Assembly: GCF_963677155.1 (NCBI RefSeq) | Contig: NZ_OY781884.1 | Span: 4,770,501-4,834,500 of the forward strand | Reading direction: 5' to 3' | Origin: an uncultured Draconibacterium sp. | GTDB taxonomy: Bacteria > Bacteroidota > Bacteroidia > Bacteroidales > Prolixibacteraceae | Length of the DNA stretch: 64,000 bases | In this document: one piece after another, positions 14,950 through 31,233 of the stretch | Layout: each line of letters starts with the position of its first letter | Position numbering within the stretch: the stretch's first letter is position 1 | Notes under the pieces: generated by a model | What the model saw: the letters and a program-made list of their open reading frames with translations, nothing else | Database searches by the model: none | What the model was told of the DNA's origin: nothing | Made by a program: the position numbers and the translations under genes

Positions 14950-15062
14950 TATCGTTTTTCAGGTAAAAATAAGTTTTTCAGCCATGCATTTATTTGATGT
15001 TGAAAAAAATCAGGAAAGGTTAACATGTATTTGTCTACTTTTATGGTGTTAAAGTACGAACT

Positions 15063-17120
15063 ATGATTAACGAAAAATTGCTCAGTCCCAACAGTATTGT
15101 AGTTGTTGGTGCGTCGAATAATATTGCAAAGCCCGGTGGAAAAGTCATAAAAAACCTGTTAGATCACAATTTTGCAGGCGATCTTTTTGCCATTAATCCT
15201 AACGAGTCAAAAATTCAGGGAATTCCTGCTTTTCCCGATGTGGCGGAATTACCTGAGATTGATTTGGCAATTTTAGCTATTCCCGCCAAATATTGTTTGC
15301 AAACCATTACCGATTTGGCAGAGCAAAATAATACTAAAGCATTTATTATCATCTCTGCCGGATTTGGCGAAACCAGCGATGCTGGAAAAGAACTTGAGCA
15401 GGAAATTGTAAAAGTGGTTGAGGAACACGATGCTTGTTTAATCGGGCCAAATTGTATTGGAGTGATGACACCCTGGCATGCCAGTGTTTTTACCACGCCT
15501 ATACCGGAACTTACTTCCGAAGGTTGCGATTTTATTTCCGGCTCGGGAGCAACTGCTGTTTTTATTATGGAATCCGGTATCTCGAAAGGTTTACGTTTTG
15601 CCAGCGTTTTTTCGGTGGGAAACAGCGCACAAATTGGTGTTGAGGATGTTTTGGCTTACCTTGATGAACACTACGTTGATGGCGAAAGCCCGCGCGCAAA
15701 ATTGTTGTATATTGAGAATATTAACGATCCGGATAAATTGTTATATCACGCTACCTCGTTAATTAAAAAAGGCTGCAAAATAGCTGCGATAAAAGCCGGA
15801 AGTTCATCGGCCGGAAGCCGTGCGGCATCATCGCATACCGGAGCACTTACCAGTTCAGATGCTGCTGTTGAGGCATTGTTTCGCAAAGCCGGAATTGTAC
15901 GTTGCTATGGCCGCGAAGAGTTAACAACTGTTGCCAGTATATTTATGTGCAAAAAGTTGCAGGGCGAGAAACTGGCGATAATAACACATGCCGGAGGACC
16001 TGGGGTTATGCTTACTGATGCACTGGAAGACGGTGGATTAAAAATACCGGAGATCGCTGATTCTCCGGCAAAAACTTCTTTGTTGCAAAAGTTATTTCCC
16101 GGATCGTCGGTGGAAAATCCCATCGATTTTTTGGCAACAGGAACCGCAGAACAATTAGGACATATTATTGATGCCTGCGAGAATGATTTTGATGTAGATG
16201 GAATGGCAGTGATTTTCGGAAGCCCGGGATTATTTCCGATTGGCGATGTTTACGATGTGCTTTCCGAAAAGATGAAAGTTTGTAAAAAACCGATTTACCC
16301 GATTCTGCCATCGATTATTAATGTAAAAGATGATGTCGCTCACTTTTTATCGCGAGGCAATGTAAATTTTCCCGACGAGGTGTTGCTGGGCCGTGCGTTA
16401 ACAAAAGTAATGAATACTCCACAGCCTGTTGCAGAAGTTGAAAATGCGCACGAAATCGATCCTGAGGCAGTTAAAGGAGTAATTGCCGAAACCGAAAATG
16501 GTTACCAGCCGCCGGAAATAATTCATAAATTGTTCGATTTGGCGGGAATTCCAAGGGTAAAAGAAATGGTAGCTAAATCAGAGTCGGAAGCAGTGCTGGC
16601 TGCCATGAATATTGGTTTTCCGGTGGTAATGAAAGTGGTTGGCCCTGTACACAAAACCGAAGTTGGTGGGGTAATTCTTAATGTTCGGAATGTTACACAG
16701 GTGCGCAAAGAGTTTCATCACCTGTTTCAGATTGAAGGAACAGAGGGAGTATTAATAGCTCAAATGGCAGCCGGAACAGAACTGTTTTTAGGAGCTACTT
16801 ACGAAGAACCTTTCGGACACGTTGTGTTGTGCGGAATGGGCGGCATTTATGTGGAGGTGATGAAAGATGTGGCATCGGGTCTGGCACCGCTAACACGCAG
16901 CGAAGCCCGGTCGATGGTTACCAATCTTAAATCATACAAAATACTAAAAGGTTTTCGCAAGCAGGAAGGCGTAAATATCGATAAGTATGTGGATATTATT
17001 GTGCGTCTGTCGTGGTTACTGCGTTTTGCTACCGAAATTAAAGAAATTGACATTAATCCGTTGTTGGGGAACGAACAGGAAATTTTGGCGGTTGATGCCC
17101 GAATTCGTATAGAACGGTAA
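15063..17120 (+). CDS. ADP-forming acyl-CoA synthetase, fused alpha-beta
   Basis: Converts an acyl-CoA plus ADP and phosphate into the free acid, CoA and ATP (reversible), giving substrate-level ATP in fermenters. The 685 residues comprise a CoA-binding domain (SIVVVGASNN at the start), a ligase/flavodoxin-like pair with the phosphohistidine segment SSHTGALTSSDAA (His258, equivalent to the alpha-subunit catalytic His of this family), and a C-terminal ATP-grasp domain (about 470-685, with FPVVMKVVGPVHKTEVGGV). Substrate range spans acetyl-CoA to arylacetyl-CoA in known members and cannot be read from sequence. Its position 2.5 kb before iorAB makes arylacetyl-CoA a reasonable guess. Confidence 0.9.
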   Translation: MINEKLLSPNSIVVVGASNNIAKPGGKVIKNLLDHNFAGDLFAINPNESKIQGIPAFPDVAELPEIDLAILAIPAKYCLQTITDLAEQNNTKAFIIISAGFGETSDAGKELEQEIVKVVEEHDACLIGPNCIGVMTPWHASVFTTPIPELTSEGCDFISGSGATAVFIMESGISKGLRFASVFSVGNSAQIGVEDVLAYLDEHYVDGESPRAKLLYIENINDPDKLLYHATSLIKKGCKIAAIKAGSSSAGSRAASSHTGALTSSDAAVEALFRKAGIVRCYGREELTTVASIFMCKKLQGEKLAIITHAGGPGVMLTDALEDGGLKIPEIADSPAKTSLLQKLFPGSSVENPIDFLATGTAEQLGHIIDACENDFDVDGMAVIFGSPGLFPIGDVYDVLSEKMKVCKKPIYPILPSIINVKDDVAHFLSRGNVNFPDEVLLGRALTKVMNTPQPVAEVENAHEIDPEAVKGVIAETENGYQPPEIIHKLFDLAGIPRVKEMVAKSESEAVLAAMNIGFPVVMKVVGPVHKTEVGGVILNVRNVTQVRKEFHHLFQIEGTEGVLIAQMAAGTELFLGATYEEPFGHVVLCGMGGIYVEVMKDVASGLAPLTRSEARSMVTNLKSYKILKGFRKQEGVNIDKYVDIIVRLSWLLRFATEIKEIDINPLLGNEQEILAVDARIRIER

Positions 17121-17336
17121 TTTATTTTCCACAAATAATACAAAGTCAGCAAAAACAGGATTTAAAGAATTTTAGTGCTCGCAGTGAATTTAAATGCGCC
17201 TATTGCTAATCAGGAGGAATAGTTGCTGGTTTCCAATTTACACTTCATTAAGATTAATTCAGAATAAAATATTAAAAGGATTAATTCGAATGTTGAGAGT
17301 CGATCCAGATTATTGGTCAGATATTTCTAATTTGGT

Positions 17337-18605
17337 ATGATCAAAACATTGAATATGCTTAAACATGTGGCCTTAAACGGCGATGATCTGGCGATGGATT
17401 CTGTCTTTATAAAAAGGCTTTTAAGAGGGGAGTCGGAGTATTTTTCCGAATTGAAGGGAAAAAAAGGAGTGTTATTTTCGAATACAACACTGGCGAAGTT
17501 TATCGAGGATGAATTCAAACACGATAAATACGAGTTAACGAAAAGCTATGGGCGCAGCATACGGACCTTATCAAGCGGAGAGCAAAAAAAGGCGCTATTG
17601 GAATTTCTAATGGAGAAACAGCCCGGTTTTATTATTTTGGATAATCCTTTCGATGCGCTGGATGTGGCTTCTGTAAAGCAGTTAAAAAAGCGTTTGGAAA
17701 GCATTGCCAACAAAATGACTATTATACAGATTTTTAAACGAAAGAGTGATCTGCTGCCGTTTATAAAGCATGCCATGCGCGTTGATAGTGGAAAAGTTGT
17801 TTTCAATGATGGAGTTGAACAATACCTTGAAAAATATGAGCTGGCATCAGAGGCAAATTTTAGCTTTAATATTCCCGGCCCTTTACACGAAAATTACGAA
17901 TGTTATGAAGAGTTGATCAAACTAAATGATGTTTCGGTTAACTACCAGAAACGACAGATTCTGAATAGTATTAATTGGACGATTAAAGCCGGAGAGTTCT
18001 GGCAATTAAAAGGCCCAAACGGATCGGGAAAAACCACTATTCTAACCATGATATATGGAGATAATCCAAAAGCATTTGGGCAGAACATTGAACTGTTTGG
18101 CCGCCGTAAAGGAACAGGCGAAAGTGTTTGGGATATAAAAAAGAAGATCGGGTATTTTACACCGTCAATGATGGAGTTGTTTAAACGCCGTCATACCGCC
18201 GAACAAATGGTGATCTCGGGTTTTCACGATTCCATTGGGTTGTACCACCGGCCAAGCGAAATACAAAGACATGTGGCTAACGAGTGGTTGAACGTGCTGG
18301 GACTGGCCGATAAGGGGAACCGGGCTTTTGTCGATCTTTCACAGGTGCATCGCAGGATGGTGCTGATAGCCCGCGCCATGATTAAACATCCGCCGCTGCT
18401 GATTCTCGACGAGCCTTCAACCGGACTGGACGATAAAAGTGCAGCACTACTTTCGGCGCTAATCAATAAAATAGCGGCCGAAAGCCAAACGGCTATTCTT
18501 TATGTTTCGCACCGAACGGAGCCCGATTTAAAACCTGCGTTTGTTTTTGAACTGAAACCCGGCGAAAATGGTTCGGTGGGGGAGGTGGTGAGTTTTAGAT
18601 CTTAG
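17337..18605 (+). CDS. double ABC ATPase (ModF/PhrA-like) with one ATP site
   Basis: A 422-residue soluble protein with two ABC domains and no membrane segments. Half one (1-165) has a signature (LSSGEQ, 78-83) and Walker B (FIILD, 98-102), but no Walker A, and Asn103 sits where the catalytic Glu should be. Half two (195-422) has Walker A (GPNGSGKT, 226-233), Walker B with Glu359 (LLILDEP) and the His-loop (SHRTE, His392), but its signature is broken (LSQVH, 334-338). The pieces left make exactly one complete composite site. It is about 70 residues shorter than ModF at the N-terminus, and no missing P-loop is seen upstream. Role unknown; relatives are linked to molybdate or photorepair only by name. 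It overlaps the convergent next gene by 4 bases. Confidence 0.8.
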   Translation: MIKTLNMLKHVALNGDDLAMDSVFIKRLLRGESEYFSELKGKKGVLFSNTTLAKFIEDEFKHDKYELTKSYGRSIRTLSSGEQKKALLEFLMEKQPGFIILDNPFDALDVASVKQLKKRLESIANKMTIIQIFKRKSDLLPFIKHAMRVDSGKVVFNDGVEQYLEKYELASEANFSFNIPGPLHENYECYEELIKLNDVSVNYQKRQILNSINWTIKAGEFWQLKGPNGSGKTTILTMIYGDNPKAFGQNIELFGRRKGTGESVWDIKKKIGYFTPSMMELFKRRHTAEQMVISGFHDSIGLYHRPSEIQRHVANEWLNVLGLADKGNRAFVDLSQVHRRMVLIARAMIKHPPLLILDEPSTGLDDKSAALLSALINKIAAESQTAILYVSHRTEPDLKPAFVFELKPGENGSVGEVVSFRS

Positions 18606-19390
18606 CTTTTTACGGCTTTAACCGAATACACCAAAGGAAACTTATTTTCAAGCCCTTCAATCTTATATTTCCCTTCTTCAACCTCAACTAAATTTTCGAG
18701 GCAATCGTAGGGTGAATAGTTGTATTCTTTGAAGTCGGTAAGCGTGAGTCCTGATTTTATAAGTGAATCGATTACTGTGCTTAGACCGTGGTTCCAGCAA
18801 ACCGACTTTCCCTTTATCTGCACATCACTATCGGTATAGGTGCCTTCCAGTTCTTCTACAATCGCTTCCGATTCCATATAGTCAAACTCCACCCGCTTAA
18901 AATCGTAGCTAAACATCAAAACAATCGGATGAAACTCAACAAACACCAGCTGCCCTCCTGGCTTTAAGAAATGCTCAATAACCTTTGCCCACTTTTTCAT
19001 GTCGGGTAGCCAGCTAATTACTCCGTACGACGTATATACGATATCAAATTTTTCATCCAGAATTTCGGGTAATTTGTACACATCGCTCTGAATAAACCGT
19101 GCGTTGGTGCCAAGCTGTTCGTTCAGTTGTCTGGCTTTTTCAATGGCTTTTTCAGAGAAATCAACTCCTGTTGCCGATGCGCCATGCCGTGCCAGAGAAA
19201 TAGTGTCCTGTCCAAAATGACATTGCAGGTGAAGAATCTTTTTTCCCTCGATATTTCCCAACAATTCAGTTTCAATCGGATTTAATGAATCCTTTCCATT
19301 TATAAAGGCATTTACATTGTAAAAATCAGATTTGTAATGAATGTCTGTTTTCTCGTTCCAAAGTCTTTTATTGATATTGATGTAGTCCAT
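18602..19390 (-). CDS. class I SAM-dependent methyltransferase
   Basis: A 262-residue cytosolic methyltransferase. Motif I is visible as KILHLQCHFGQDTISLARHG (about 50-69), followed by the acidic end of strand 2 (GVDFSEKAI) and motif II/III (FDIVYTSYGVISWL, then FLKPGGQLVFVEFHP). The C-terminal part is larger than the minimal fold and likely binds the substrate, which is unknown. Its stop codon shares three bases with the stop of the convergent ABC gene (TAA at 18602-18604 on the minus strand, TAG at 18603-18605 on the plus strand). Confidence 0.85.
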   Translation of the reverse strand: MDYININKRLWNEKTDIHYKSDFYNVNAFINGKDSLNPIETELLGNIEGKKILHLQCHFGQDTISLARHGASATGVDFSEKAIEKARQLNEQLGTNARFIQSDVYKLPEILDEKFDIVYTSYGVISWLPDMKKWAKVIEHFLKPGGQLVFVEFHPIVLMFSYDFKRVEFDYMESEAIVEELEGTYTDSDVQIKGKSVCWNHGLSTVIDSLIKSGLTLTDFKEYNYSPYDCLENLVEVEEGKYKIEGLENKFPLVYSVKAVKS

Positions 19391-19527
19391 GTGTTGCGAT
19401 TAAATGAGCTTAAATATATGGATTTGTTCATTAGCTTCTATATTTATTGTATCAGCTTTCTTTATGGAAGAAAGTGGAGGCATAGCTAATTTGTATTCAT
19501 TATAAAGATAAAACATGACAATTCTGA

Positions 19528-19557
19528 TTGCATAAAAACCTCAAATTAATACTTTTG
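19528..19557 (+). promoter_or_regulatory. promoter of iorAB
   Basis: TTG at 19528-19530, 19 bases, then TACTTTTG at 19550-19557, an exact TAnnTTTG element. Transcription would begin near 19564, leaving a leader of about 17 bases before iorA. The same architecture and spacing recur at 21910-21939. Confidence 0.6.
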
Positions 19558-19580
19558 TTGACTTCGAAAATTAAACCAAA

Positions 19581-21200
19581 ATGCAAAAGAATCTATTTTT
19601 AGGAGTGGAAGCCGTTGGGCAGGGAGCTATTGATGGCGGAATCTCAGGGGTTTATGCCTATCCCGGCACTCCTTCAACCGAAATAACAGAGTTTATTCAG
19701 GAAAATGAACTGGCCATTGAAAAAGGCATTCGCAGTAAATGGTCGGCTAACGAAAAAACAGCTTACGAAGCTGCTTTGGGCATGTCGTACGCCGGCAAAC
19801 GAAGCATGGTTTGTATGAAACATGTGGGACTGAATGTGGCTGCCGATGCTTTTATTAACTCGGCGATTACCGGAATTAACGGCGGTTTGATCATCACTGT
19901 AGCCGACGATCCGTCGATGCACTCGTCGCAAAACGAGCAGGACTCGCGTTTCTACGGCAAGTTTGCCATGATTCCGATTCTGGAACCCAGCAACCAGCAG
20001 GAAGCTTACGACATGGTTCGCGAAGGTTTTGAGCTTTCTGAAAAACTGGAAGTTCCGGTAATGCTGCGTATTACAACCCGTTTGGCACATTCGCGTGCCG
20101 GAGTAATTCGCAGCGAAGTTCTGGCTGAAAACGAAATGGTTTTACCAACTGATCCAAGTCAGTTTGTTTTGCTGCCTGCCATTGCCCGAAGAAGATACAA
20201 AGGGTTGCTTGAAAAACAGGAACTGTTCGAGAAGACCGCCAAAAAATCGAAATACAACACATACTTCAAAGGCGAAGACAAAAGTTTTGGAATTATTGCC
20301 TGCGGTATTGCTTACAACTACCTCAAAGAAAATTATCCGAAAGGCGATTGTCCGTATACCGTATTGAAATTGTCGCAATACCCGGTTCCACAAAAATTTT
20401 TGGATAAAATGGCCAAACATTGCGAAGAAGTGCTGGTACTGGAAGAAGGTTATCCGGTAGTAGAAGAGCATGTTAAAGCTGCTTTTAAAAAGGATATTCT
20501 TGTTTCGGGACGCTTAAGTGGTGCCTTGCCACGCGATGGTGAATTGAATGCCGACCTGGTTGCAAAAGCATTAGGTAAAGAAACACAACTTGGTGCCGAT
20601 GTTCCTGAATTGGTGGTAAATCGTCCGCCGGCATTGTGTCAGGGATGCGGTCATCAGGATATGTACAAATCATTAAATGAAGCGTTGGATAAATACACCA
20701 AAGGGCGTGTTTTCTCTGATATCGGATGTTATACACTAGGGGCGCTGCCTCCCTACAAAAGTATTTATTCTTGTGTTGACATGGGAGCTTCGGTAACCAT
20801 GGCTAAAGGAGCTGCCGATGCCGGATTGATTCCTGCCGTGGCTGTTATTGGCGATTCAACCTTTACTCATTCGGGAATTACCGGTTTGCTGGATGCTGTT
20901 AACGACGGATCGAATATCGTAGTTGTTATTTCTGATAACGAATCGGTATCGATGACCGGAGGTCAGGATTCTTCAGCACTTGGAAAGGTTGAAAGTATTT
21001 GTAGAGGTGTTGGTGTTGCCTCAGATCATATTCGCGTGTTAACACCGCTGAAAAAGTATCACGATTTGATGGTGCAGACTTTCGAAGAGGAAATTGCCTA
21101 CGAGGGTGTTTCTGTAATTGTGTTCCGTCGCGAGTGTATTCAGGCCGCAGCAAAACGACTGCGCAAACAAAAGAAAATGAAAGATAACCCTAATAAATAA
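19581..21200 (+). CDS. iorA: indolepyruvate ferredoxin oxidoreductase, alpha subunit
   Basis: Decarboxylates aromatic 2-oxoacids (indolepyruvate, phenylpyruvate, hydroxyphenylpyruvate) to arylacetyl-CoA using thiamine diphosphate, passing electrons to ferredoxin. The N-terminal pyrimidine-binding domain opens with GVYAYPGTPSTEITEF. The TPP domain shows CQGCGH (Cys353, Cys356) and GDSTFTHSG with SDN further on. Archaeal IorA is about 100 residues longer because it ends with a domain binding two [4Fe-4S] clusters. This 539-residue protein ends in a basic tail (RLRKQKKMKDNPNK) with no cysteine cluster, so it lacks that domain. Six bases separate it from iorB. Confidence 0.92.
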   Translation: MQKNLFLGVEAVGQGAIDGGISGVYAYPGTPSTEITEFIQENELAIEKGIRSKWSANEKTAYEAALGMSYAGKRSMVCMKHVGLNVAADAFINSAITGINGGLIITVADDPSMHSSQNEQDSRFYGKFAMIPILEPSNQQEAYDMVREGFELSEKLEVPVMLRITTRLAHSRAGVIRSEVLAENEMVLPTDPSQFVLLPAIARRRYKGLLEKQELFEKTAKKSKYNTYFKGEDKSFGIIACGIAYNYLKENYPKGDCPYTVLKLSQYPVPQKFLDKMAKHCEEVLVLEEGYPVVEEHVKAAFKKDILVSGRLSGALPRDGELNADLVAKALGKETQLGADVPELVVNRPPALCQGCGHQDMYKSLNEALDKYTKGRVFSDIGCYTLGALPPYKSIYSCVDMGASVTMAKGAADAGLIPAVAVIGDSTFTHSGITGLLDAVNDGSNIVVVISDNESVSMTGGQDSSALGKVESICRGVGVASDHIRVLTPLKKYHDLMVQTFEEEIAYEGVSVIVFRRECIQAAAKRLRKQKKMKDNPNK

Positions 21201-21206
21201 GTAGAA

Positions 21207-21788
21207 ATGAAGACAGATATTATATTAGCCGGAGTTGGCGGACAGGGAATTCTTTCCATTGCATCAATTATTGGCGATGCGGCCATTAACGAGAACTTAT
21301 TTCTGAAACAGGCAGAAACACACGGAATGAGCCAGCGTGGAGGGGCAGTGCAATCGCACCTTCGTATTTCCGACAGCGAAATTGCTGCTGATCTAATCCC
21401 GATGGGAAAGGCCGATTTGATTTTGTCGGTTGAGCCAATGGAAGCCTTGCGTTACTTGCCGTTTCTCTCTTCCGAAGGTTATGTAGTAACCAATATAACG
21501 CCTTTTATCAATATTCCCAATTACCCGGATGTTGACGCTGTTTTGGCAGAAATAAAAAAACAACCACGTTTTGTAGCTATCGATGCGGATAAAATTGCTT
21601 CGGAAATTGGTAATAAACGTGCTTCGAATGTGGTAATACTGGGAGCTGCTACTCCTTTTCTGAATATTGAGCCGGAAAAAATTGAAGCCGGAATTGCACA
21701 TATTTTCAGTAGAAAAGGCGAAGCCGTAGTAGAAATGAACCGAAAAGCTTTTAAAGCCGGTTTGGATTTTGCAATGGCAAACAAATAG
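21207..21788 (+). CDS. iorB: indolepyruvate oxidoreductase, beta subunit
   Basis: A 193-residue partner of IorA, homologous to the gamma domain of pyruvate:ferredoxin oxidoreductase. The start matches the family: ILAGVGGQGILSIASIIG, then QAETHGMSQRGGAVQSHLRI, the segment expected to contact CoA and the alpha subunit. It carries no cysteine-rich cluster motif, as usual. The gene follows iorA by 6 bases and is followed by an intrinsic terminator, so iorAB is a two-gene unit. Confidence 0.92.
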   Translation: MKTDIILAGVGGQGILSIASIIGDAAINENLFLKQAETHGMSQRGGAVQSHLRISDSEIAADLIPMGKADLILSVEPMEALRYLPFLSSEGYVVTNITPFINIPNYPDVDAVLAEIKKQPRFVAIDADKIASEIGNKRASNVVILGAATPFLNIEPEKIEAGIAHIFSRKGEAVVEMNRKAFKAGLDFAMANK

Positions 21789-21810
21789 AAAAATCATAAC
21801 CATCAATAAG

Positions 21811-21850
21811 AAACCCGTTCCGAACAATTGTTCGAGGATGGGTTTTTTTA
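21811..21850 (+). terminator. intrinsic terminator after iorB
   Basis: The arm starting AAACCC pairs with the arm ending GGGTTT around an inner GAAC-AATT-GTTC hairpin, followed by a run of seven T. It separates iorAB from the porin-paaK unit. Confidence 0.75.
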
Positions 21851-21909
21851 TGTGTAGTTTGAAATCAAAATAAATAAGCACGGTTTGGATTCAAATTGTA
21901 ACCAGAACG

Positions 21910-21939
21910 TTGGGTAGACCTCTGAAATTGCTAATTTTG
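21910..21939 (+). promoter_or_regulatory. promoter of the porin-paaK-ACT-symporter unit
   Basis: TTG at 21910-21912, 19 bases, then TAATTTTG at 21932-21939, an exact TAnnTTTG element with the same spacing as the iorAB promoter. The leader to the porin start at 22066 would be about 120 bases, long enough for regulation, though I see no clear structure in it. Confidence 0.6.
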
Positions 21940-22065
21940 GACCTCGTGTTTAAAACAGCTAAATATTATTATTCATTAGATTACCTCTGTTTTCACCTGA
22001 AGACCTGATTGGGAACTTCGGGTAATCAATCTATTCAATCAACAACAAAAACTAATCAGCTTACA

Positions 22066-23325
22066 ATGAAAAAAATACTTGCTATTGCATGTGGTGTATG
22101 CCTTTTCTATTCAGGAATAACAGCTCAGGAAAAACAATTTAAAGCCGAGGTCTACGGTTTTATACGAAGCGAATTCTACCACGATTCTTATAAAGGTATC
22201 AATGCCGCAATGGACAATTTTTACATGTTTCCGGCGTATGCGGGTGTTGATCCCTCGGGAAAAGAAATCAACAAAAATGGGATGACTAACTACACAGCCA
22301 TGGCAACCCGTTTTGGTTTTAATATTACCGGCCCTGAATTGTTGGGGGCTAAATCATCAGCTAATTTTGAAACCGATTTTTCCGGAATTGTAAGCGAATA
22401 CCCGGAAGTATTACGATTGCGAAAAGCTTATTTAAAACTCGATTGGGAAAACGCATCGCTTTTGGTGGGGCAAACCTGGCATCCGCTGTGGAACGGAATG
22501 GGGGGGAATTATCCAAAGGTTGGTAATCTGAATACCGGAGCCCCTTTTAATCCGTTTAATCGTTCGCCTCAGATAGATTTTGATTACCGAACTGGTAATA
22601 TTACTTTGTCGTTTACTGCACTTTATGAGCAACAATATGTATCGCGTGGATTCTATGATACACCAAATAGCAACTGTAAAAACCTGCCCAAACGTAATGC
22701 CGGAATACCAGAGCTGGTAATTGGAATCAATCACAGCAATGGCGCAGTAACTGCCGGAATTGCTGGTCAGTTTAATGCTATTCAGCCTATGTCGATTACA
22801 GATATGGGCTATGTTACAGAGGAACTGAATACCAGCCTGGTGGGAATGGCATATCTGACCTATAAAAAGGATAAATTGTATATGCTTGCCAAAGGATTGT
22901 ACGGGCAAAATATGGCAAATATGTTGATGTTGGGAGGCTACGGAGCTAAAACTTACGATTTAACTACTGGTGAAATGACCTATACCAATTATAATAACTA
23001 CAGTGCTTTATTTAACCTGGTTTATGGCACTAAAGTACAACTGGGATTGTTTGCCGGTATCGCCGGAAATCTTGGAACTGTAGATCCGCTTTATAACTTT
23101 GATGGTAATGCCAAAATTGCCGGTTTGGCAACGTCGTTAAAAAATATGTCGCGTGCCTCAACTTCTCTGGCTTACAATATTCAAAATCTGAAATTCGTTG
23201 CCGAGTACGAAATAACATCGGCAGATTGGGGAGCAGGGGAATTCGATTTCTCCGACGGACTTTATGAGGATACAAATAACGCAACCAATCACCGTTTTTT
23301 GTTAATGGTGATGTATAATTTTTAG
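22066..23325 (+). CDS. porin-like outer-membrane protein (DcaP-like)
   Basis: A 419-residue outer-membrane barrel. The start at 22066 gives a clear signal peptide (MKKILAIACGVCLFYSGITA); a longer frame from a TTG at 22009 would add 19 polar residues and hide it. The mature N-terminus AEVYGFIRSEFYHDSY and LLVGQTWHPLW in the middle resemble DcaP-type porins, and the last residue is Phe in LMVMYNF, the barrel-closing signature. It stops 3 bases before the first paaK gene, so the two are co-translated, which suggests it admits the aromatic acids or related compounds handled by the unit. The substrate is inference. Confidence 0.75.
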   Translation: MKKILAIACGVCLFYSGITAQEKQFKAEVYGFIRSEFYHDSYKGINAAMDNFYMFPAYAGVDPSGKEINKNGMTNYTAMATRFGFNITGPELLGAKSSANFETDFSGIVSEYPEVLRLRKAYLKLDWENASLLVGQTWHPLWNGMGGNYPKVGNLNTGAPFNPFNRSPQIDFDYRTGNITLSFTALYEQQYVSRGFYDTPNSNCKNLPKRNAGIPELVIGINHSNGAVTAGIAGQFNAIQPMSITDMGYVTEELNTSLVGMAYLTYKKDKLYMLAKGLYGQNMANMLMLGGYGAKTYDLTTGEMTYTNYNNYSALFNLVYGTKVQLGLFAGIAGNLGTVDPLYNFDGNAKIAGLATSLKNMSRASTSLAYNIQNLKFVAEYEITSADWGAGEFDFSDGLYEDTNNATNHRFLLMVMYNF

Positions 23326-23328
23326 AGA

Positions 23329-24648
23329 ATGGCACAAGAATTTTGGCAGGAAGAGTTTGAAACACTGGAGAAGAAAAGATTGCAAAAGCTTCAGGTTGAA
23401 CGCTTGAATAAAACAATTGAGAGTGCTTGTCAGTCGCCTTTTTATGGTGAATTGTACAGCCGGAAGAAAATAAAACCGGGTATAATAAAGGCCATTTCGC
23501 AGATTACGGAATTGCCTTTTACCACCAAACAGGATTTACGCAATCATTTTCCGTATGGCTTCTTAAGTTTGCCTAAAAAGGATATTATTCGTTTGCACAG
23601 CTCGAGTGGAACCACCGGAAATCCAACGGTAATTTTTCACAACCGTCACGATCTGAATTCGTGGGCCAATTTAATGGCGCGTTCGCTGTTTTGCGCAGGA
23701 GTTCGCGATACCGATGTTTTTCAGAATATTTGTGGTTACGGATTGTTTACCGGAGGCCTTGGTTTTCAATATGGAATTGAAACGCTGGGGGCTTTGAGTA
23801 TTCCTGCAGGAGCGGGAAACAGCCTGCGCCAGATTAAATTAATGCGCGATTACGGAACAACAGCAGCACACGCCATTCCAAGTTATTTGGGACGTTTATA
23901 CGAGGTTTTTCAGGCTGAAGGGCTGGATCCGAAAAAGGATACCAAACTAAAAACTCTGGTTATTGGAGCTGAACCACATACGGATGCACAACGCAAACGT
24001 ATTGAAGAAATGTATGGTGTACGTGCTTTTAACTCGTTTGGACTTTCGGAAATGAACGGTCCGGGAGTGGCTTTTGAGTGTACGTACCAAAACGGGTTGC
24101 ACATTTGGGAAGATTCGTACCTGGTGGAAATTATTGATCCGGAAACGCTTCAACCTGTTCCCGATGGCGAATATGGCGAATTGGTAATGACAACACTCGA
24201 CAGGGAATCTATGCCCTTAATTCGCTACCGAACACGCGATATCACCCGGATTATTCCAGGCGAATGTGCTTGTGGAAGAACTCACCGTCGTATTGACCGA
24301 ATTACTGGCCGATCGGACGATATGTTTATTATAAAAGGTTGTAATGTATTCCCGATGCAAATTGAGGGAGTGCTGATGAAAATACCGGAAGTGGGATCGG
24401 ATTATATGATTAATCTGGAAACAATGAATGGTGTTGATGAAATGGTAGTAGAGGTGGAAGTAAAAGCAGATTGGTTTAGGGGAGATATAAAACGCCTGGA
24501 TGGTTTGAGCAAAACCATTACCCGCCAGATTCGAGATGAGGTACTGGCAAAGCCAATTGTAAAACTGGTGGAAGCCGGTTCCATACCCAAGTCGGAAGGC
24601 AAAGCCATTCGCGTATGCGATAACCGTAAAAACGGACTTTTAAAATAG
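23329..24648 (+). CDS. paaK: phenylacetate-CoA ligase (first copy)
   Basis: An AMP-forming ligase that joins phenylacetate or related arylacetates to CoA. Of its 439 residues, SSSGTTGNPT (91-100) is the phosphate-binding P-loop of adenylating enzymes; FGLSEMNGPG is the A5-like motif; YRTRDIT and the cysteine pair in CACGR precede the hinge (DRITGRSDDM), and the C-terminal lid ends with a lysine (KSEGKAIRV) near the usual catalytic position. It lies between the porin and an ACT gene. With IorAB, it could feed arylacetyl-CoA back to 2-oxoacids for aromatic amino acid synthesis. Confidence 0.9.
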   Translation: MAQEFWQEEFETLEKKRLQKLQVERLNKTIESACQSPFYGELYSRKKIKPGIIKAISQITELPFTTKQDLRNHFPYGFLSLPKKDIIRLHSSSGTTGNPTVIFHNRHDLNSWANLMARSLFCAGVRDTDVFQNICGYGLFTGGLGFQYGIETLGALSIPAGAGNSLRQIKLMRDYGTTAAHAIPSYLGRLYEVFQAEGLDPKKDTKLKTLVIGAEPHTDAQRKRIEEMYGVRAFNSFGLSEMNGPGVAFECTYQNGLHIWEDSYLVEIIDPETLQPVPDGEYGELVMTTLDRESMPLIRYRTRDITRIIPGECACGRTHRRIDRITGRSDDMFIIKGCNVFPMQIEGVLMKIPEVGSDYMINLETMNGVDEMVVEVEVKADWFRGDIKRLDGLSKTITRQIRDEVLAKPIVKLVEAGSIPKSEGKAIRVCDNRKNGLLK

Positions 24649-24690
24649 CATTAACTTGAAACTTTGAACTTTTAAATCGAAACTAAAACT

Positions 24691-25125
24691 ATGGCTTACG
24701 AAGTATCAATATTTCTCGAAAACAAAATTGGTCATTTCGAACGCATAACCAGCGTATTGAAAGCGGCTAAAATTAATATCCGGTCGATGGCGATAAACGA
24801 CACGGCAAACGGCTGGGGAATTCTAAATCTTATTGTTAGCGATCCGGGAAAAGCAAAAAATGTACTTTCTGAAAAAGGAGTGTCGGTGGCATTGCGTAAA
24901 GTAATTGCTCTTGAAATGCGCGATGAAACAGGTGGCCTCGACGATTTGCTGATGGAAGTAGCAAGGGCCAAAGTAAATTTCGATAATGCCGTTGGTCGCG
25001 TGATCACCGAAAAACAAAAAGCTATTCTGATATTACATGTTGATGATTATGCCGAATCGATAAAGAAACTCGAAAAACAAGGGGTACAAATTATCGACGA
25101 CCAAACCGTTTACGGAACCAGTTAA
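24691..25125 (+). CDS. tandem ACT domain protein A
   Basis: A 144-residue protein of two ACT domains with no catalytic part. The first begins VSIFLENKIGHFERITSVLK, the second after about residue 68. ACT domains bind amino acids, often at dimer interfaces. Its closest relative in the window is the protein at 27041, which shares most of the first 40 residues and the VIALEM and VYG segments, so the two look like duplicates. Such genes commonly lie next to paaK in Bacteroidota; sensing of aromatic amino acids or their derivatives is inference. Confidence 0.85.
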   Translation: MAYEVSIFLENKIGHFERITSVLKAAKINIRSMAINDTANGWGILNLIVSDPGKAKNVLSEKGVSVALRKVIALEMRDETGGLDDLLMEVARAKVNFDNAVGRVITEKQKAILILHVDDYAESIKKLEKQGVQIIDDQTVYGTS

Positions 25126-25156
25126 TAAAATACTCAACCAAAAAACTAAAAAACTT

Positions 25157-25336
25157 ATGCTAGGAATCAACGATCCCGGGATAATTCTCGGCTATCTTTT
25201 ATCTGTGGTAGGTTTAATTGCCTGTGTGGTTTATGGGGCATTAAACTGGAATAAAGGAATGGAAACCAGTACCGACGAAATTCAGCGCGATCTGGATTGG
25301 GAAGAAAAAGACGAACATTTAAAGGACGAAATATAA
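25157..25336 (+). CDS. symporter small accessory protein
   Basis: A 59-residue protein with one membrane segment (about residues 9-29, IILGYLLSVVGLIACVVYGA) and an acidic, charged tail (EEKDEHLKDE). The stop is 10 bases before the symporter start. Small single-span proteins of this kind precede sodium:solute symporter genes in several bacteria and are named for that. The topology and position support the call; the mechanism is unknown. Confidence 0.75.
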   Translation: MLGINDPGIILGYLLSVVGLIACVVYGALNWNKGMETSTDEIQRDLDWEEKDEHLKDEI

Positions 25337-25346
25337 TACAACTGCT

Positions 25347-26933
25347 ATGAACTCATTTACGCTGGGATTGGTAGTTGTAATCTACCTTTTAGTTATTGCT
25401 TACCTCGGATACCGGGGCTACAGTCAAACAAAATCGGCAAAAGACTATCTGCTTGCCGGAAGAGATATTCATCCCTTTGTGATGGCGATGTCGTATGGAG
25501 CCACTTTTATTTCAACTTCGGCTATTATTGGGTTTGGAGGAATTGCTGGTGTGTACGGAATGGGATTAATTTGGTTAACAGCATTGAATATAATAATTGG
25601 TGTGTTTATCGCATTTATCTTCTTTGGGCGCGTTACCCGAAAGATGGGGCACAACCTCGATGCACATACCTTTCCCGAATTTTTGGGTAATCGTTTTCAA
25701 TCGAAAAAAATTCAGATCATCAGTGGAGCGGTAATTTTTGTTTCAATGCCGCTTTATGCGGCGGTTGTATTGATTGGTGGTGCACGGTTTATCGAAAGTA
25801 TTTTCGAGATTGATTTTTCGCTGGCTTTAACTTTTTTCTCCATTATTATTGCTGCCTATGTAATTGCCGGTGGTTTAAAAGGTGTAATGTACACCGATGC
25901 ACTGCAGGGAAGTATTATGTTCCTTAGTTTGTTCTTTTTGCTGATTGTTACCTACCAAAAACTTGGCGGAGTAAGTGCCGCACACCATGCGCTTACCAAT
26001 ATGGCAGACATAGTGCCGGAAAATTTGAAAACAGCCGGACACGAAGGGTGGACAGCTTTCCCAAAAATAAATTCAGCATGGTGGTGGGCATTAACAACCA
26101 ATATTTTGCTAGGTGTTGGCATTGGTGTTTTGGCACAACCTCAACTTGTTGTGCGTTTTATGACCGTAAAAAGTAACCGCGAGCTGAACCGTGCAGTGTT
26201 GATTGGAGGAGTGTTTATTTTTGTGGTTACCGGTTTTATTTATACTGTTGGTGCACTTACCAATGTTTATTTTCATAATGAAGCGGGGCAGCTGGCTATT
26301 CAATTTGCGCAGGGAAATGTCGATTTAATCATTCCCGAATATATTAGCTCCGCGATGCCCGAATGGTTTGTTTATCTGTTTATGCTGGCGCTGTTATCGG
26401 CCGGAATGTCAACTCTTAGTTCGCAGTTCCATGCAATGGGAACTTCGCTGGGGCGCGATTTTATCGAGAATATTTTTCCAAATAGAAAATTCAATAGCAT
26501 GATGTTATCGAAATTATCAATCATTGTTGCAATAATTATAAGTATAATAATTGGGTATAAACTACCGGGAAGCATTGTTGCACGCGGAACAGCCATTTTC
26601 TTTGGTATTTGTGCAGCGGCTTTTTTACCGGTTTATTTTGCAGCGCTGTATTGGAAGCGGGCAACAAAAAAGGCTGCCGTTTGGAGTATTCTTGCGGGTT
26701 TGGGAGCAAGTGCTTTTGCCCTGACTTTTATGCATGCAAAAGAATCGGAACCGCTGGGAATTTGTCAGGCCCTCTTCGGAAAACCATCGCTGGCAACCGA
26801 ATTTCCATGGATGATCATAGACCCGATAATGATTGCCATGCCGGTATCGATAGTGGTGCTGATCGCTGTTTCTTTGTTTACGCAAAAAACGTCCGACGAG
26901 CACCTGGCAACCTGCTATCAAGGAATAAAATAA
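25347..26933 (+). CDS. sodium:solute symporter family transporter
   Basis: A 528-residue integral membrane protein with about 13 hydrophobic segments and the family's early GYRGYSQTKSAKDYLLAGRD and GATFISTSAIIGFGG segments, the latter contributing to the sodium site. Substrates in the family include monocarboxylates, amino acids, sugars and, in some cases, arylacetates. Between two ACT and two paaK genes it is most likely an importer of phenylacetate-type acids, which is inference. The small accessory protein precedes it directly. Confidence 0.9.
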   Translation: MNSFTLGLVVVIYLLVIAYLGYRGYSQTKSAKDYLLAGRDIHPFVMAMSYGATFISTSAIIGFGGIAGVYGMGLIWLTALNIIIGVFIAFIFFGRVTRKMGHNLDAHTFPEFLGNRFQSKKIQIISGAVIFVSMPLYAAVVLIGGARFIESIFEIDFSLALTFFSIIIAAYVIAGGLKGVMYTDALQGSIMFLSLFFLLIVTYQKLGGVSAAHHALTNMADIVPENLKTAGHEGWTAFPKINSAWWWALTTNILLGVGIGVLAQPQLVVRFMTVKSNRELNRAVLIGGVFIFVVTGFIYTVGALTNVYFHNEAGQLAIQFAQGNVDLIIPEYISSAMPEWFVYLFMLALLSAGMSTLSSQFHAMGTSLGRDFIENIFPNRKFNSMMLSKLSIIVAIIISIIIGYKLPGSIVARGTAIFFGICAAAFLPVYFAALYWKRATKKAAVWSILAGLGASAFALTFMHAKESEPLGICQALFGKPSLATEFPWMIIDPIMIAMPVSIVVLIAVSLFTQKTSDEHLATCYQGIK

Positions 26934-27040
26934 TGGAATGGGTTTTACCCGAACTGAAAATATGATTTCCGTTGTGGAAAGTTTACCTAATAAACTTTAT
27001 TTTTACGGAACCATGTTGAATAAACGAAAAAACTACAATT

Positions 27041-27472
27041 ATGGCATTTGAAATATCTGTTTTTCTTGAAAACAAGATCACCCATTTTGAGGCGATCACT
27101 GCGCTGTTAAAAAAAGAAGGAATAAACATTCGTACGCTTACTTTAAATAACATGGCACACGGATGGGGGGTATTAAGTCTGCTGGTCGATAATCCAGATG
27201 AGGCTTACAAGCTTCTTACCGACCATGGAAACTCTGTGGCGATGAAAGAGGTGATTGCGCTTGAAATGAAAGACGAAGCGGGAGGATTGGATGAGATACT
27301 GGTGACAATTGCACGTGCCGGGATTCACATTGAAAGTGCTTATACGCGCCTTATTGCCGAAAGTAATCTTGCCGTACTGTTACTTGAAGTGCCAGATGTT
27401 TTGGAGGCTGTTCGTCGTTTGGAAATCAACCATGTGAAAATTCTTGATGATAAAGTAGTTTACGGAAAATAG
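27041..27472 (+). CDS. tandem ACT domain protein B
   Basis: A 143-residue double ACT protein. It begins [20 protein letters not shown] and shares [25 protein letters not shown] and a final VYGK with protein A at 24691, at the same spacing. It sits 107 bases after the symporter and 65 before the second ligase. It probably forms homo- or heterodimers with its paralogues and binds an amino acid; the ligand is unknown. Confidence 0.85.
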
Positions 27473-27537
27473 CATTTGCCAAAATACCCGATTGTAGACC
27501 AAAAACAACATGTAAAACCAAAGATGAACTAAATTTT

Positions 27538-28836
27538 ATGATTTGGAATGAAAAGATAGAATGCGCCTCTCGCGATGAGATGGCCGCTGTTCAAAGCGAG
27601 CGATTAAAACAAACCGTTCAGCGTATTTACCACAATATACCGAGCTACCGCACAAAAATGCAGGAAATAGGCATGTTGCCGGGTGATGTACGTTCGGTAG
27701 AAGATTTAAAAAACCTGCCGTTTACCAATAAAACCGATTTGCGCGATAATTATCCGTTTGGAATGTTTACCGTACCCATGAGCGAAATTGTACGTGTACA
27801 TGCCAGCTCGGGAACTACTGGAAAACCAACGGTTGTTGGCTACACCCGAAACGACCTGAGTATGTGGGCTGAAGTGGTTACCCGCTCGCTATGTATGTCG
27901 GGCGTAACGCGTAACGACATTGTACAGGTGGCCTATGGTTACGGACTGTTCACCGGCGGTTTGGGATTACATTACGGAACCGAAAATCTTGGTGCAACGG
28001 TAATTCCAATTTCGGGGGGGAATACGAAGAAGCAAATTCAGTTGATGCAGGATTTTGGTTCGTCGGTAATTGCGTGTACACCTTCGTATGCTTTATTTTT
28101 GGCCGAGGTAATGCAGGAAATGGGCATTGAACCGGAAGAACTGAAACTGCGGGTTGGAATTTTTGGTGCCGAGCCCTGGAGCGAAAGCATGCGCAAGGAG
28201 ATTGAAGCAAAACTGAAGTTAAAAGCGATTGATATTTATGGGTTAAGTGAAGTAATTGGACCAGGAGTTTCGTGCGAGTGCGAGCACCAGGTTGGAATGC
28301 ATGTTAACGAAGATCATTTCATTCCGGAAATTTTGGATACGGAAACACTCCAGCCTGTTACTCCCGGAGAAGTGGGAGAGTTGGTATTTTCAACCATTAC
28401 GAAGGAAGGAATTCCGATTTTGCGTTACCGTACGCGCGACCTTACCCGACTGATTTACGATAAATGTGAGTGCGGACGTACGCTGGTGCGCATGGAAAAA
28501 TGTAAAGGCCGCTCTGATGATATGCTAATCATTCGTGGTGTGAATGTATTCCCATCGCAAATTGAAAGTGTATTGCTTGAAATGAGTGAAACAGAACCAC
28601 ACTATCTGTTAATTGTGGAGCGCGAAGGAACTTTGGACATACTAAAACTAATGGTGGAAGTTCAGGAGCAGTTTTTTTCCGATGAAGTGCGAGAACTGGA
28701 GAAACTGAAGAAGAAAATAACGCACAATATTCAAAGTACGCTGGGTATTTCAGTAGATGTGAAACTGGTGGAACCAAAAACCATTGAGCGTACAGCAGGA
28801 AAAGCAAAACGTGTAATCGATAACCGTAAAATCTAA
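27538..28836 (+). CDS. paaK: phenylacetate-CoA ligase (second copy)
   Basis: A 432-residue ligase paralogous to the one at 23329. Its P-loop, [10 protein letters not shown] (89-98), followed by VVGYT, matches canonical PaaK more closely than the first copy (GTTGNPTVIFH). [22 protein letters not shown] and CKGRSDDM are all present, as is a C-terminal lysine-rich end. Two ligases in one unit suggest different aromatic acids, for example phenylacetate and indoleacetate or hydroxyphenylacetate; that is inference. The next ACT gene starts 4 bases after its stop. Confidence 0.9.
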
Positions 28837-28840
28837 AGCT

Positions 28841-29269
28841 ATGATCATTAAACAAGTTTCAGTTTTTTTAGAGAACAAGTCAGGGCGATTAAACGAAGTG
28901 ACAAAAATACTGGCTGATGCCGGAATAAACCTGTCGGCGTTTACTATTGCCGATACTTCCGATTTTGGAATTCTACGAATGATCGTTTCTGAGCCGGAAA
29001 AAGCATGCACGGTGTTAAAAGATAGCGGGTTTTCGGTAAAAACCACCGATGTTGTTTTGGCCAAAACGCCCAATCAGCCGGGAAGCTTGAGCAAGCTGCT
29101 GGATATTCTGCAAAAAGAGGAAGTGTTTATTGAATACATGTACGCTTTTTCTATGAAAGATGAAGGAGCAGTTACCGTAATTCGTCCAACACGTGTTGAA
29201 CGTTGTGTTGAGATGTTGCAGAAACATAAAACGGAATTAATACGGGCCGACGAACTTTACCAACTGTAG
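28841..29269 (+). CDS. tandem ACT domain protein C
   Basis: A 142-residue double ACT protein, clearly more diverged from A and B (start IIKQVSVFLENKSGRLNEVT, second domain after about residue 70 with PGSLSKLLDIL). It has the classic ACT glycine after the first strand (NKSGRL and NQPGSL), which places it nearer to regulatory ACT proteins of amino acid metabolism. It is coupled to the second ligase by a 4-base gap and followed by a strong terminator. Confidence 0.85.
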   Translation: MIIKQVSVFLENKSGRLNEVTKILADAGINLSAFTIADTSDFGILRMIVSEPEKACTVLKDSGFSVKTTDVVLAKTPNQPGSLSKLLDILQKEEVFIEYMYAFSMKDEGAVTVIRPTRVERCVEMLQKHKTELIRADELYQL

Positions 29270-29291
29270 TCGCAAATCGATACGAAAATAT

Positions 29292-29327
29292 AAAAGCGGA
29301 TTTCCGGGAGGGGATCCGCTTTTTTTG
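29292..29327 (+). terminator. intrinsic terminator ending the aromatic unit
   Basis: AAAAGCGGAT pairs with ATCCGCTTTT around a C/G-rich loop, followed by T residues. It ends the porin-to-ACT C unit 22 bases after its last stop. Confidence 0.8.
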
Positions 29328-29422
29328 TGCATTTCTGTTTTATGATCCAAGCTAAATTAAAATTCATTGCAACTGAACGGAATCATTATCGTAAATTGGA
29401 GGATCAAAAAAAACGATAAAAC

Positions 29423-30157
29423 ATGGAAGTACTTGGAATTGATTTTGGCGGATCGGGGATTAAGGGAGCAATTGTGGATACCAAAACAGGAGAGTTAGTT
29501 ACTGAACGACACCGTATTGAAACTCCGCAACCGGCAACTCCTGACGCTGTGGCAGAAGTAATGGCACAACTTACCCATCATTTTAACTGGAAGGGCAAAG
29601 TTGGAGTTGGTGTTCCTGCTGTAGTAAAAAACGGTGTGATGTTAACCGCTGCGAACATCGATAAAAGTTGGATAGGACAGGAAGTCAACAAGCAATTATC
29701 AGATAAAACAGGCTGCGAAGTGGAGTGTGTAAACGATGCCGATGCTGCAGGAATTGCCGAGATTCATTTTGGTGCCGGAGCCAAAGAAAAAGGCATGGTA
29801 TTTCTACTTACTGTAGGAACCGGAATAGGAACAGTAATTTTTATCGACAAACACCTTGTTCCGAATTTGGAGTTGGGACATCTGGAGTTTAATGGCAAAA
29901 CCATTGAACGTTATTCTGCAGATTCAGTGCGAAAAAGAAAAAACCTGTCGTGGGAAGAGTGGGGCATACGTTTTAACAAAGTACTGGATTATTACGACAA
30001 GATGTTTAATCCCAACCTGTTTATTATTGGTGGCGGAGTAAGCAAAAAAATGGATAAGTTTGAGGATTGTGTAAAATTGGATACTCCGGTAGTACCTGCC
30101 GAAATGCAAAACAATGCCGGTATTATCGGCGCTGCTTTAAATATGGTTTATAAGTAA
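29423..30157 (+). CDS. polyphosphate glucokinase-like ROK protein
   Basis: A 244-residue ROK-family sugar kinase. The phosphate loop is [13 protein letters not shown], and GTGIGTVIF is the second nucleotide motif. The zinc-binding cysteine motif of most ROK proteins is absent; instead it has [19 protein letters not shown], as in polyphosphate glucokinases, and the length fits that group. It probably phosphorylates glucose with polyphosphate and perhaps ATP in the cytosol. It is monocistronic after the terminator and converges with the serine hydrolase gene, 20 bases between. Confidence 0.82.
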
Positions 30158-30177
30158 TCTGTAACCAGTGAATTCCA

Positions 30178-31233
30178 TCAATGGGCATTATGATGTTTCT
30201 TTACGATTCTCATAACCCGCCTGTATACAATTTCCATTGTGCTCCATTCGTATCCTTCAAAATTGGTAGTATTTACAAATTGAATAACAACTGTGTCGAT
30301 GTCTTTGTGGTATTTGGCAATGCTCATGTAACCCGGCATTAATCCTGTGTGTTCGTAAACGTAAATTGAGGAGTAGATTTCCTGTTCACCCTCATTAAAC
30401 ACCGAGCCATCATTTAATGCCCGCAGAAAAATGCCAACGTCTTCGGCGCTGGCAACCATCGAAGTAAGCTTGGTTCCGTAATCTCCGGCTTTAATATCTT
30501 CTTCAATTCCACCATAATAACCACTCATTACATCGTCAATATTTTGTTCGTTAATTGCTCCATAAGTATTTTTCAGTCCAAGCGGATCCAGAATTTCCTT
30601 TTTAATTGTTTGAAATACTTCTTTTCCTGTCACCTTTTCAATCAGCATCGAAATCAACAAATAGTTGGTGTTCGAGTATCGGTATTTTGCATCGGGGGCA
30701 AAGTCGGCTGGTAAATCAAGCACGCGTTCAAGTGCCTCTTCACTGCTCGACGGTGGAGTAACCCAAAAGTTTGGTGTATCGGTTAAATTCGGAATCCCGC
30801 TGCGGTGTTGCACCAGCATTCTGAGGGTGATTTTGTCCGCATTTTCAATTCTTCCAATCAACTCGGGGAAATAATCAGCTAGCGTTTTATCCAGCGACAA
30901 ACGTCCGTCGTTTACCATTTTTGCAATAACAACCGCATTATATAGCTTGCTGATGCTGGCAATTTTGAATAATGAATGGGGATCTGCCGGAGTCTTGTTT
31001 TCTCTGTTTTTGTATCCGGCAGCATAAAAAGCAGGTTCTTTTCCGGCTTCATCAACATATACAATTATACCGTCAAACCCGTATTTGATGCTTTTGTCGA
31101 GCTGTTGCTGAACCGTATCAGGGAGTGGAGAAAGCATAATTTTCAACAATAACCACGGAACAAAAAATAGTGATATGGCGGTTCCTGTAAATAGTATTAT
31201 TCTGATAATTAGTGTTGTTTGTTTCTTTTTCAT
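30178..31233 (-). CDS. membrane-anchored serine hydrolase (class C beta-lactamase fold)
   Basis: A 351-residue protein with one N-terminal membrane segment (about 8-33) and a periplasmic beta-lactamase/D-aminopeptidase-like domain. Ser93-x-x-Lys96 (SISK) is the nucleophile motif, YSN in YRYSNTNY is the second, and HTG in EHTGLMPGY is the third. True beta-lactamase activity is unlikely to be the main role; relatives are peptidases or esterases acting on peptidoglycan or D-amino acid peptides. It is last of a three-gene set (ankyrin, acyltransferase, hydrolase) with gaps of 21 and 28 bases. Confidence 0.88.
   Translation of the reverse strand: MKKKQTTLIIRIILFTGTAISLFFVPWLLLKIMLSPLPDTVQQQLDKSIKYGFDGIIVYVDEAGKEPAFYAAGYKNRENKTPADPHSLFKIASISKLYNAVVIAKMVNDGRLSLDKTLADYFPELIGRIENADKITLRMLVQHRSGIPNLTDTPNFWVTPPSSSEEALERVLDLPADFAPDAKYRYSNTNYLLISMLIEKVTGKEVFQTIKKEILDPLGLKNTYGAINEQNIDDVMSGYYGGIEEDIKAGDYGTKLTSMVASAEDVGIFLRALNDGSVFNEGEQEIYSSIYVYEHTGLMPGYMSIAKYHKDIDTVVIQFVNTTNFEGYEWSTMEIVYRRVMRIVKKHHNAH

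Follow-up and report, generated by a model that had tools for sequence, protein, structure and literature searches.

Pairing of PaaK-type ligases with tandem ACT proteins in a gene unit that includes indolepyruvate oxidoreductase, from an uncultured Draconibacterium sp. and its relatives

Here we report the analysis of a stretch of 64,000 nucleotides from an uncultured Draconibacterium sp. (Prolixibacteraceae; NCBI RefSeq assembly GCF_963677155.1, contig NZ_OY781884.1, positions 4,770,501 to 4,834,500), hereafter called the window; the host genome is a single contig of 5,268,975 bases. The window contains a unit that encodes two ligases of the phenylacetate-coenzyme A (CoA) ligase type (PaaK1 and PaaK2), three free-standing tandem ACT proteins (ACT A, B and C), a putative porin and a symporter. 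Ligase-specific pairing holds for PaaK1 with ACT A and for PaaK2 with ACT C, and does not hold for ACT B. The function with the best support is the conversion of arylacetates and aromatic amino acids into one another. In the reading that we prefer, to which we assign a probability of roughly one half, arylacetates are taken up and fed towards aromatic amino acids, with ACT A and ACT C as sensors for the ligases and ACT B standing apart.

Eight of the genes lie at 22066-29269, all on the plus strand and separated by gaps of 3-107 nt, in the order beta-barrel porin, PaaK1, ACT A, accessory protein, sodium:solute (SSS) symporter, ACT B, PaaK2 and ACT C, which is the order given in an earlier note made from the sequence alone. 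The tightest spacings are those between the porin and PaaK1 (3 nt) and between PaaK2 and ACT C (4 nt). The whole genome encodes two PaaK-type C-domains and three ACT_8 proteins, every one of them within this run. Family loci were examined in 39 genomes (42 loci: the window, L080 and L135-L174), which were picked for holding ACT_8. The identical eight-gene order was found in 9 of the 40 loci L135-L174, and in two more with a doubled symporter; since the order recurs in relatives, the arrangement is not due to chance. Predicted promoters and terminators were not in excess over shuffled sequences (14 versus a mean of 22.7 and 10 versus a mean of 11.0, respectively), so we infer the operon structure from the gaps alone. 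A search for riboswitches and T-boxes gave zero Rfam matches at gathering scores in 14500-30500.

The pairing of ligase and ACT genes is not special to the window. Among the family loci, ACT A adjoins PaaK1 in 28 of 28 cases and ACT C adjoins PaaK2 in 39 of 39, one ACT C (L155) containing an internal stop. In a wider survey, we inspected the best 80 named loci, out of at least 568 confirmed, of ACT C relatives, with stretches of up to 6 kb on each side. PaaK lies within 300 nt of the ACT gene in 76 of these 80 loci, at 353 nt in one and at 5 kb in another; the remaining two have no PaaK within the stretch. A porin relative is present in 12 and a prephenate dehydratase (PDT) gene in 13. The 80 loci span Parabacteroides, Bacteroides, Prevotella, Alistipes, Chlorobiaceae and metagenome-assembled genomes of a Melioribacter, a member of the Halanaerobiaceae and a member of the Clostridia; the pairing is common across Bacteroidota, where the earlier note had proposed to check synteny, and in Chlorobiaceae. 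A distance of 4-5 kb separates PaaK2 from the ACT gene in two Chlorobiaceae-type loci (L077 and L255), and in L077 the genes between them lie on both strands.

Linkage is matched by co-occurrence. In a sample of 149 genomes of the order, most of them from different families, PaaK was counted above 400 bits, a line drawn at a gap in the list of scores. Both PaaK and ACT_8 were present in 29 genomes, PaaK only in two (G135 and G128), ACT_8 only in one (G246, a weak match), and neither in 117 (Fisher p 2e-27, kinship uncorrected). An ACT gene lies within 500 nt of 37 of the 48 PaaK genes in this sample (read by eye; two of those ACT matches contain a stop). One genome (G213) has PaaK1, PaaK2, one A-type ACT and one C-type ACT on four separate contigs, so both kinds are retained there without linkage. 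Outside the family, all seven ACT proteins encoded next to PaaK1-type ligases form one fork of the tree (99/96), and five of these genomes have a separate PaaK2 with an ACT of its own elsewhere in the tree. ACT clades that are specific to the type of ligase support ligase-specific partners. The correlation between the distances of adjacent PaaK and ACT proteins (mirror tree; r 0.80-0.97) was set aside as evidence because shared ancestry alone yields it.

All three ACT proteins pass the cut-off (23.5 bits) of the Pfam family ACT_8 ('ACT domain pair'; PF19571), with 64.2 bits for ACT A (24691-25125, plus strand), 52.8 bits for ACT B (27041-27472, plus strand) and 113.4 bits for ACT C (28841-29269, plus strand), and none has a catalytic domain. 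ACT A and ACT B are 49.7% identical to each other, and ACT C is 29.8% identical to A and 26.2% to B. ACT A and B share a single long-branched clade (100/100, 52 rows); a branch that arises inside A (100/100) has all 23 B rows on one side, and ACT B of the window is placed beside A rows of the same genus (97/93). Because B branches within the A-type clade, the view of the earlier note that A and B are duplicates and C is different holds. The predicted structure of ACT A (pLDDT 92.8) has the ACT fold, with 2f06 (BT0572 of Bacteroides thetaiotaomicron) as the top solved match (TMq 0.87), and ACT C is a sequence relative of the same protein (E 8.4e-44). For a ligand of 2f06, the mention found in the accessible part of the literature only lists the code among ACT structures.

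The three types differ in a glycine of the beta1-alpha1 loop of the first domain, which we take to be the ligand-contact site of amino-acid-binding ACT domains. It is present in 29 of 29 A-type proteins (L074 left out) and in all 67 readable C-type proteins (74 scanned), and in none of the 21 readable B-type proteins (23 scanned).

ACT B also differs in its fate. We surveyed 140 family genomes, with PaaK counted at E 1e-90, and found ACT_8 in 111 and PaaK in 103: both in 101, ACT only in ten and PaaK only in two. Six of the ten ACT-only genomes (L286-L291) have the order porin-ACT B-PDT and encode neither a ligase nor another ACT_8 protein; L287 retains a 25-residue remnant of PaaK2, and in L291 the PDT gene lies 2.7 kb further on. 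In the tree, these six lone ACT proteins group within the B clade (100/99, 18 rows), where the label 'lone' needs at least four changes, and the loop glycine is present only in that of L286. ACT C is absent in all six. Of the other four ACT-only genomes, two (L283 and L285) hold ACT C and no PaaK, one (L292) has both PaaK2 and ACT C broken, and in one (L284) PaaK2 is cut by the contig end. In both PaaK-only genomes, PaaK2 is cut off at a contig end (L293 and L294), and G383 has a second, PaaK1-type copy. ACT C is thus usually missing along with PaaK2, and ACT B is not. ACT B precedes PaaK2 in 23 of the 42 family loci; in nine loci that lack PaaK1 (L146-L152, L173 and L174) it lies between the porin and PaaK2, and one of these (L148) retains a 57-residue remnant of the symporter. 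The earlier note had suggested that each ligase is controlled by an ACT partner of its own. The linkage and the clades support a pairing of PaaK1 with A and of PaaK2 with C, and the retention of ACT B in the six genomes without PaaK means that one ACT per ligase fails for ACT B.

The unit begins earlier than the earlier note had claimed. The run 22066-29269 stands as described; the genes directly upstream encode the alpha and beta subunits of indolepyruvate:ferredoxin oxidoreductase (IOR), and they belong to the unit. IorA (19581-21200, plus strand; Pfam POR_N and TPP_enzyme_C) matches TIGR03336 with 523 bits, below the equivalog cut-off of 650.9 (model positions 2-546 of 595), and IorB (21207-21788, plus strand) matches NF005324 with 308 bits, above the cut-off of 222. 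The distance from the end of iorB to the start of the porin gene is 277 nt, and PaaK1 directly follows the porin, so the Bacteroides-type pairing of IOR and ligase genes is present in the window. The earlier note left out IorA and IorB (19581-21788), in whose absence it is not apparent where the CoA esters made by the unit would go. None of 26 IorA proteins (window and 25 relatives; 525-542 residues) has the C-terminal CxxC...CxxC motif in a pattern check, although the C.GC.H motif is still present (C.GCSH in one); lacking the double-cluster ferredoxin motif, IorA would need a separate ferredoxin in its electron acceptor chain.

Of the 39 family loci that have PaaK2-ACT C, 27 have a PDT gene downstream of ACT C, at a distance of 2.8 kb in L163. 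It is mostly accompanied by genes for flavodoxin, aminotransferase, ferredoxin and VorABC and often by a Crp-type regulator (families named from the copies in L159). Ten of the other 12 loci, which form the subclade of the window, have a polyphosphate glucokinase gene instead, and two end early (L142 and L164). In the host genome, PDT, flavodoxin, aminotransferase (C1:4675025-4676338) and Crp genes form a cluster at C1:4673496-4677004, which precedes iorA by about 113 kb, and the ferredoxin-VorABC genes lie about 366 kb upstream of the unit. In other families, the order IorA-IorB-aminotransferase-PaaK2 was found in L070, L072, L092 and L180, the last without an ACT gene. In one locus of another family (L082:6403-8202), an A-type ACT gene lies 270 nt past the chorismate synthase gene (aroC), and a small Cys-rich reading frame separates the two. 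The IOR, PDT and aminotransferase neighbours point to a pathway between arylacetates and aromatic amino acids, in one direction or the other, and together with PaaK and the chorismate synthase gene of L082 they uphold the aromatic-acid reading of the earlier note.

PaaK1 (23329-24648, plus strand) and PaaK2 (27538-28836, plus strand) both have AMP-binding (PF00501) and AMP-binding_C_2 (PF14535) domains, and their adenylation motifs are intact; they are complete PaaK-type ligases of the ANL superfamily, and arylacetates are their predicted substrates. PaaK2 matches the phenylacetate-CoA ligase structure 2y27 in PDB (E 3.9e-145). The two ligases fall into distinct clades in a quick tree (support 100 each). 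PaaK2 scores 613.2 bits and PaaK1 433 bits against TIGR02155, both below its equivalog cut-off of 646.3, which was passed in none of the 149 genomes of the order sample. The oxygenase subunits PaaA/PaaC (PF05138) gave no match in the host genome (control genomes positive, 4 of 14); it thus lacks the ring-epoxidation route of aerobic phenylacetate degradation (paa), which we count in favour of a pathway directed to amino acids.

The porin (22066-23325, plus strand) has no match in Pfam or NCBIfam (no family at E 0.1). Its structural model (pLDDT 83.5) has the DcaP structure 6eus as best PDB match (E 1.2e-18, TMq 0.65), and the Pfam family DcaP (PF19577) is matched by two of the 24 members of the porin alignment, the protein of the window not among them; on the model, we consider it a candidate DcaP-like channel. 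The SSS symporter (25347-26933, plus strand; PF00474, 207 bits; TIGR00813, 201.1 bits, cut-off 184) and its accessory protein of 59 residues (25157-25336, plus strand; NF045580, 61.6 bits, cut-off 35) both score above the family cut-offs. The earlier note saw every step across both membranes covered. The genes for a porin and a symporter are present and may carry arylacetates, whereas the sequence assigns a substrate to neither, and the transport steps are in that sense conjectural. The symporter gene is tandemly duplicated in L140, L141 and L170. In four loci (L080, L163, L164 and L167), its place between ACT A and PaaK2 is taken by a membrane protein that has about 230 residues and matches Mpv17/PMP22 below the threshold. 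In three genomes without PaaK (L285, L290 and L291), an NrfH/NrfA-like cytochrome c pair adjoins the porin; the families were tested in L290, and L285 and L291 were judged by the likeness of the protein starts.

Further upstream, an ADP-forming acyl-CoA synthetase (ACD; ATP-grasp_5, Succ_CoA_lig, CoA_binding_2) is encoded at 15063-17120 on the plus strand and is possibly linked to the unit in function. Between ACD and IorA lies the gene for a ModF-like ATPase (17337-18605; below cut-off), which is kept in L136, L149 and L151.

In the mechanism that we favour, phenylacetate, hydroxyphenylacetate and indoleacetate would enter through the DcaP-like porin and then through the SSS symporter, aided by the accessory protein. 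PaaK1 and PaaK2 would form the CoA esters at the expense of ATP, IOR would reductively carboxylate arylacetyl-CoA to arylpyruvate, and the aminotransferase encoded elsewhere in the genome near PDT would yield the amino acid. ACT A for PaaK1 and ACT C for PaaK2 would be amino-acid-sensing regulatory subunits or effectors that probably slow this ATP-consuming step once the amino acid is in ample supply. ACT B, the duplicate of ACT A, would have a ligase-independent role and more likely serves the PDT/aminotransferase side. A wider version, in which the tandem ACT proteins are detachable subunits of a common feedback layer for the supply of aromatic amino acids, with A and C gating the ligases and B, with its altered ligand site, serving the PDT/aminotransferase side and letting the cell balance salvage against shikimate-derived synthesis, is rather doubtful in our view.

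The direction of flux is the weakest step of the proposed mechanism, and this is where the first group of observations against it belongs. According to the accessible part of PMC10746243, deletion of the IorA gene BT0430 in B. thetaiotaomicron lowers the production of 4-hydroxyphenylacetate, which indicates oxidation in vivo. ACD is encoded near the unit here and upstream in many relatives, including the PaaK-less L283, L286 and L289-L291, which fits an ATP-yielding oxidation. It is conceivable, if somewhat unlikely, that the pathway is mainly oxidative: transaminated amino acids would be converted by IOR to arylacetyl-CoA and reduced ferredoxin, ACD would release arylacetate with gain of ATP, PaaK and the symporter would merely recapture leaked acid, and the ACT proteins would sense a surplus of amino acids. 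In that direction, however, two AMP-forming ligases and an uptake symporter would waste ATP. For the AMP-forming ligase linked to IOR in Bacteroides, whose arylacetate-CoA ligase activity was assayed, Jiang et al. 2026 (PMC13285125) make a similar argument and suggest biosynthesis. In one screen, again seen in the accessible part of the report, none of 66 gut strains of Bacteroidota gave quantifiable indoleacetate (PMC13290082). Moreover, where ACT B is retained in the absence of PaaK (six genomes), ACT C is gone, and its presence thus follows that of the activation step. We conclude that flux is probably assimilatory, in the direction of PaaK, and that both directions may operate.

Other points weigh against the ligases as targets of the ACT proteins or against arylacetates as substrates. 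Eleven of the 48 PaaK genes of the order sample (L175-L185) have no ACT gene in the stretch, two of them being cut by contig ends, and L283 and, minus its first 23 residues, L285 hold ACT C without PaaK. Among the extracted proteins (104 PaaK of up to 445 residues and 129 ACT of up to 148) there is no PaaK-ACT fusion, although no dedicated search was made. The ACT proteins might instead regulate the symporter, the porin, PDT or a transcription factor, with the linkage to PaaK reflecting membership in a shared pathway; the two ACT C genes without PaaK, the persistence of ACT B with porin and PDT in six PaaK-less genomes and the position of the A-type gene after aroC in L082 fit such a target. 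We regard it as unlikely, as the tight neighbour is PaaK in 76 of the best 80 loci, far ahead of porin and PDT, and the ACT clades are specific to the type of ligase. With respect to the substrate, PaaK1 scores far below the PaaK equivalog cut-off, and VorABC near PaaK in relatives leaves room for branched-chain acids. That the substrates of the ligases are branched-chain or other short acids, and that the unit with VorABC assimilates isovalerate or 2-methylbutyrate, seems improbable: the VorB-type oxidoreductase downstream in family relatives (531.7 bits, cut-off 399) and the scores of both ligases favour it, whereas the neighbour in the window is IOR and not VorABC, the host VorABC genes are far away, and the PDT and chorismate synthase neighbours are specific to aromatic metabolism. 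Because the host genome itself has chorismate synthase and PDT, it probably does not depend on salvage to make these amino acids.

The core of IOR and arylacetate-CoA ligase is already known and in print for Bacteroides (PMC13285125; IOR BT0430-0429 in PMC10746243); as far as the accessible texts show, that system shares with the window the IOR, a PaaK-type ligase, arylacetate chemistry and its occurrence in Bacteroidota. The window differs in that a single run combines two ligases with three tandem ACT proteins and with a transport pair, and the terms 'ACT domain' and 'symporter' are absent from the text of PMC13285125. BT0572 is a tandem ACT protein that resembles ACT C in sequence and ACT A in fold, and 2f06 was deposited as a conserved hypothetical protein with no function named. 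In the arylacetate route of methanogens, IOR has been proposed to run in reverse from arylacetyl-CoA, and we know of no three-ACT array in that route. The IlvH-type regulatory subunit of acetolactate synthase is likewise a free-standing ACT protein that serves an enzyme; the enzyme is a different one, and ACT C matches the IlvH-type profile with 22.7 bits, far below the cut-off of 56.9. A route from arylacetates to aromatic amino acids in methanogens is mentioned in the Discussion of PMC13285125. The AcuB protein of Bacillus subtilis, whose function is given as unknown in the accessible part of PMC11255334, is encoded near the acetyl-CoA synthetase AcsA, and the likeness lies in the gene of an ACT-bearing protein near an AMP-forming acyl-CoA ligase; AcuB differs in having CBS domains and an acetyltransferase in the operon, whereas the window has no CBS or GNAT domain. 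In the accessible literature, mostly listings and abstracts, we found no description of a PaaK-ACT partnership, of ligase-specific ACT clades or of a separate fate of ACT B.

The arylacetate-CoA ligases of Bacteroidota belong to the pathway through which these bacteria produce or use up phenylacetate, hydroxyphenylacetate and indoleacetate, which are compounds of interest in the gut and in the environment. If it is true that a tandem ACT protein gates the ligase, this would explain when the bacteria salvage arylacetates and when they release them, would provide a function for the solved but unnamed structure 2f06, and would mean that control by stand-alone ACT subunits extends to AMP-forming acyl-CoA ligases. 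ACT B is a natural experiment in this respect, a regulator found without the enzymes that are normally beside it. The PaaK-ACT unit may be what switches the salvage of aromatic amino acids on and off.

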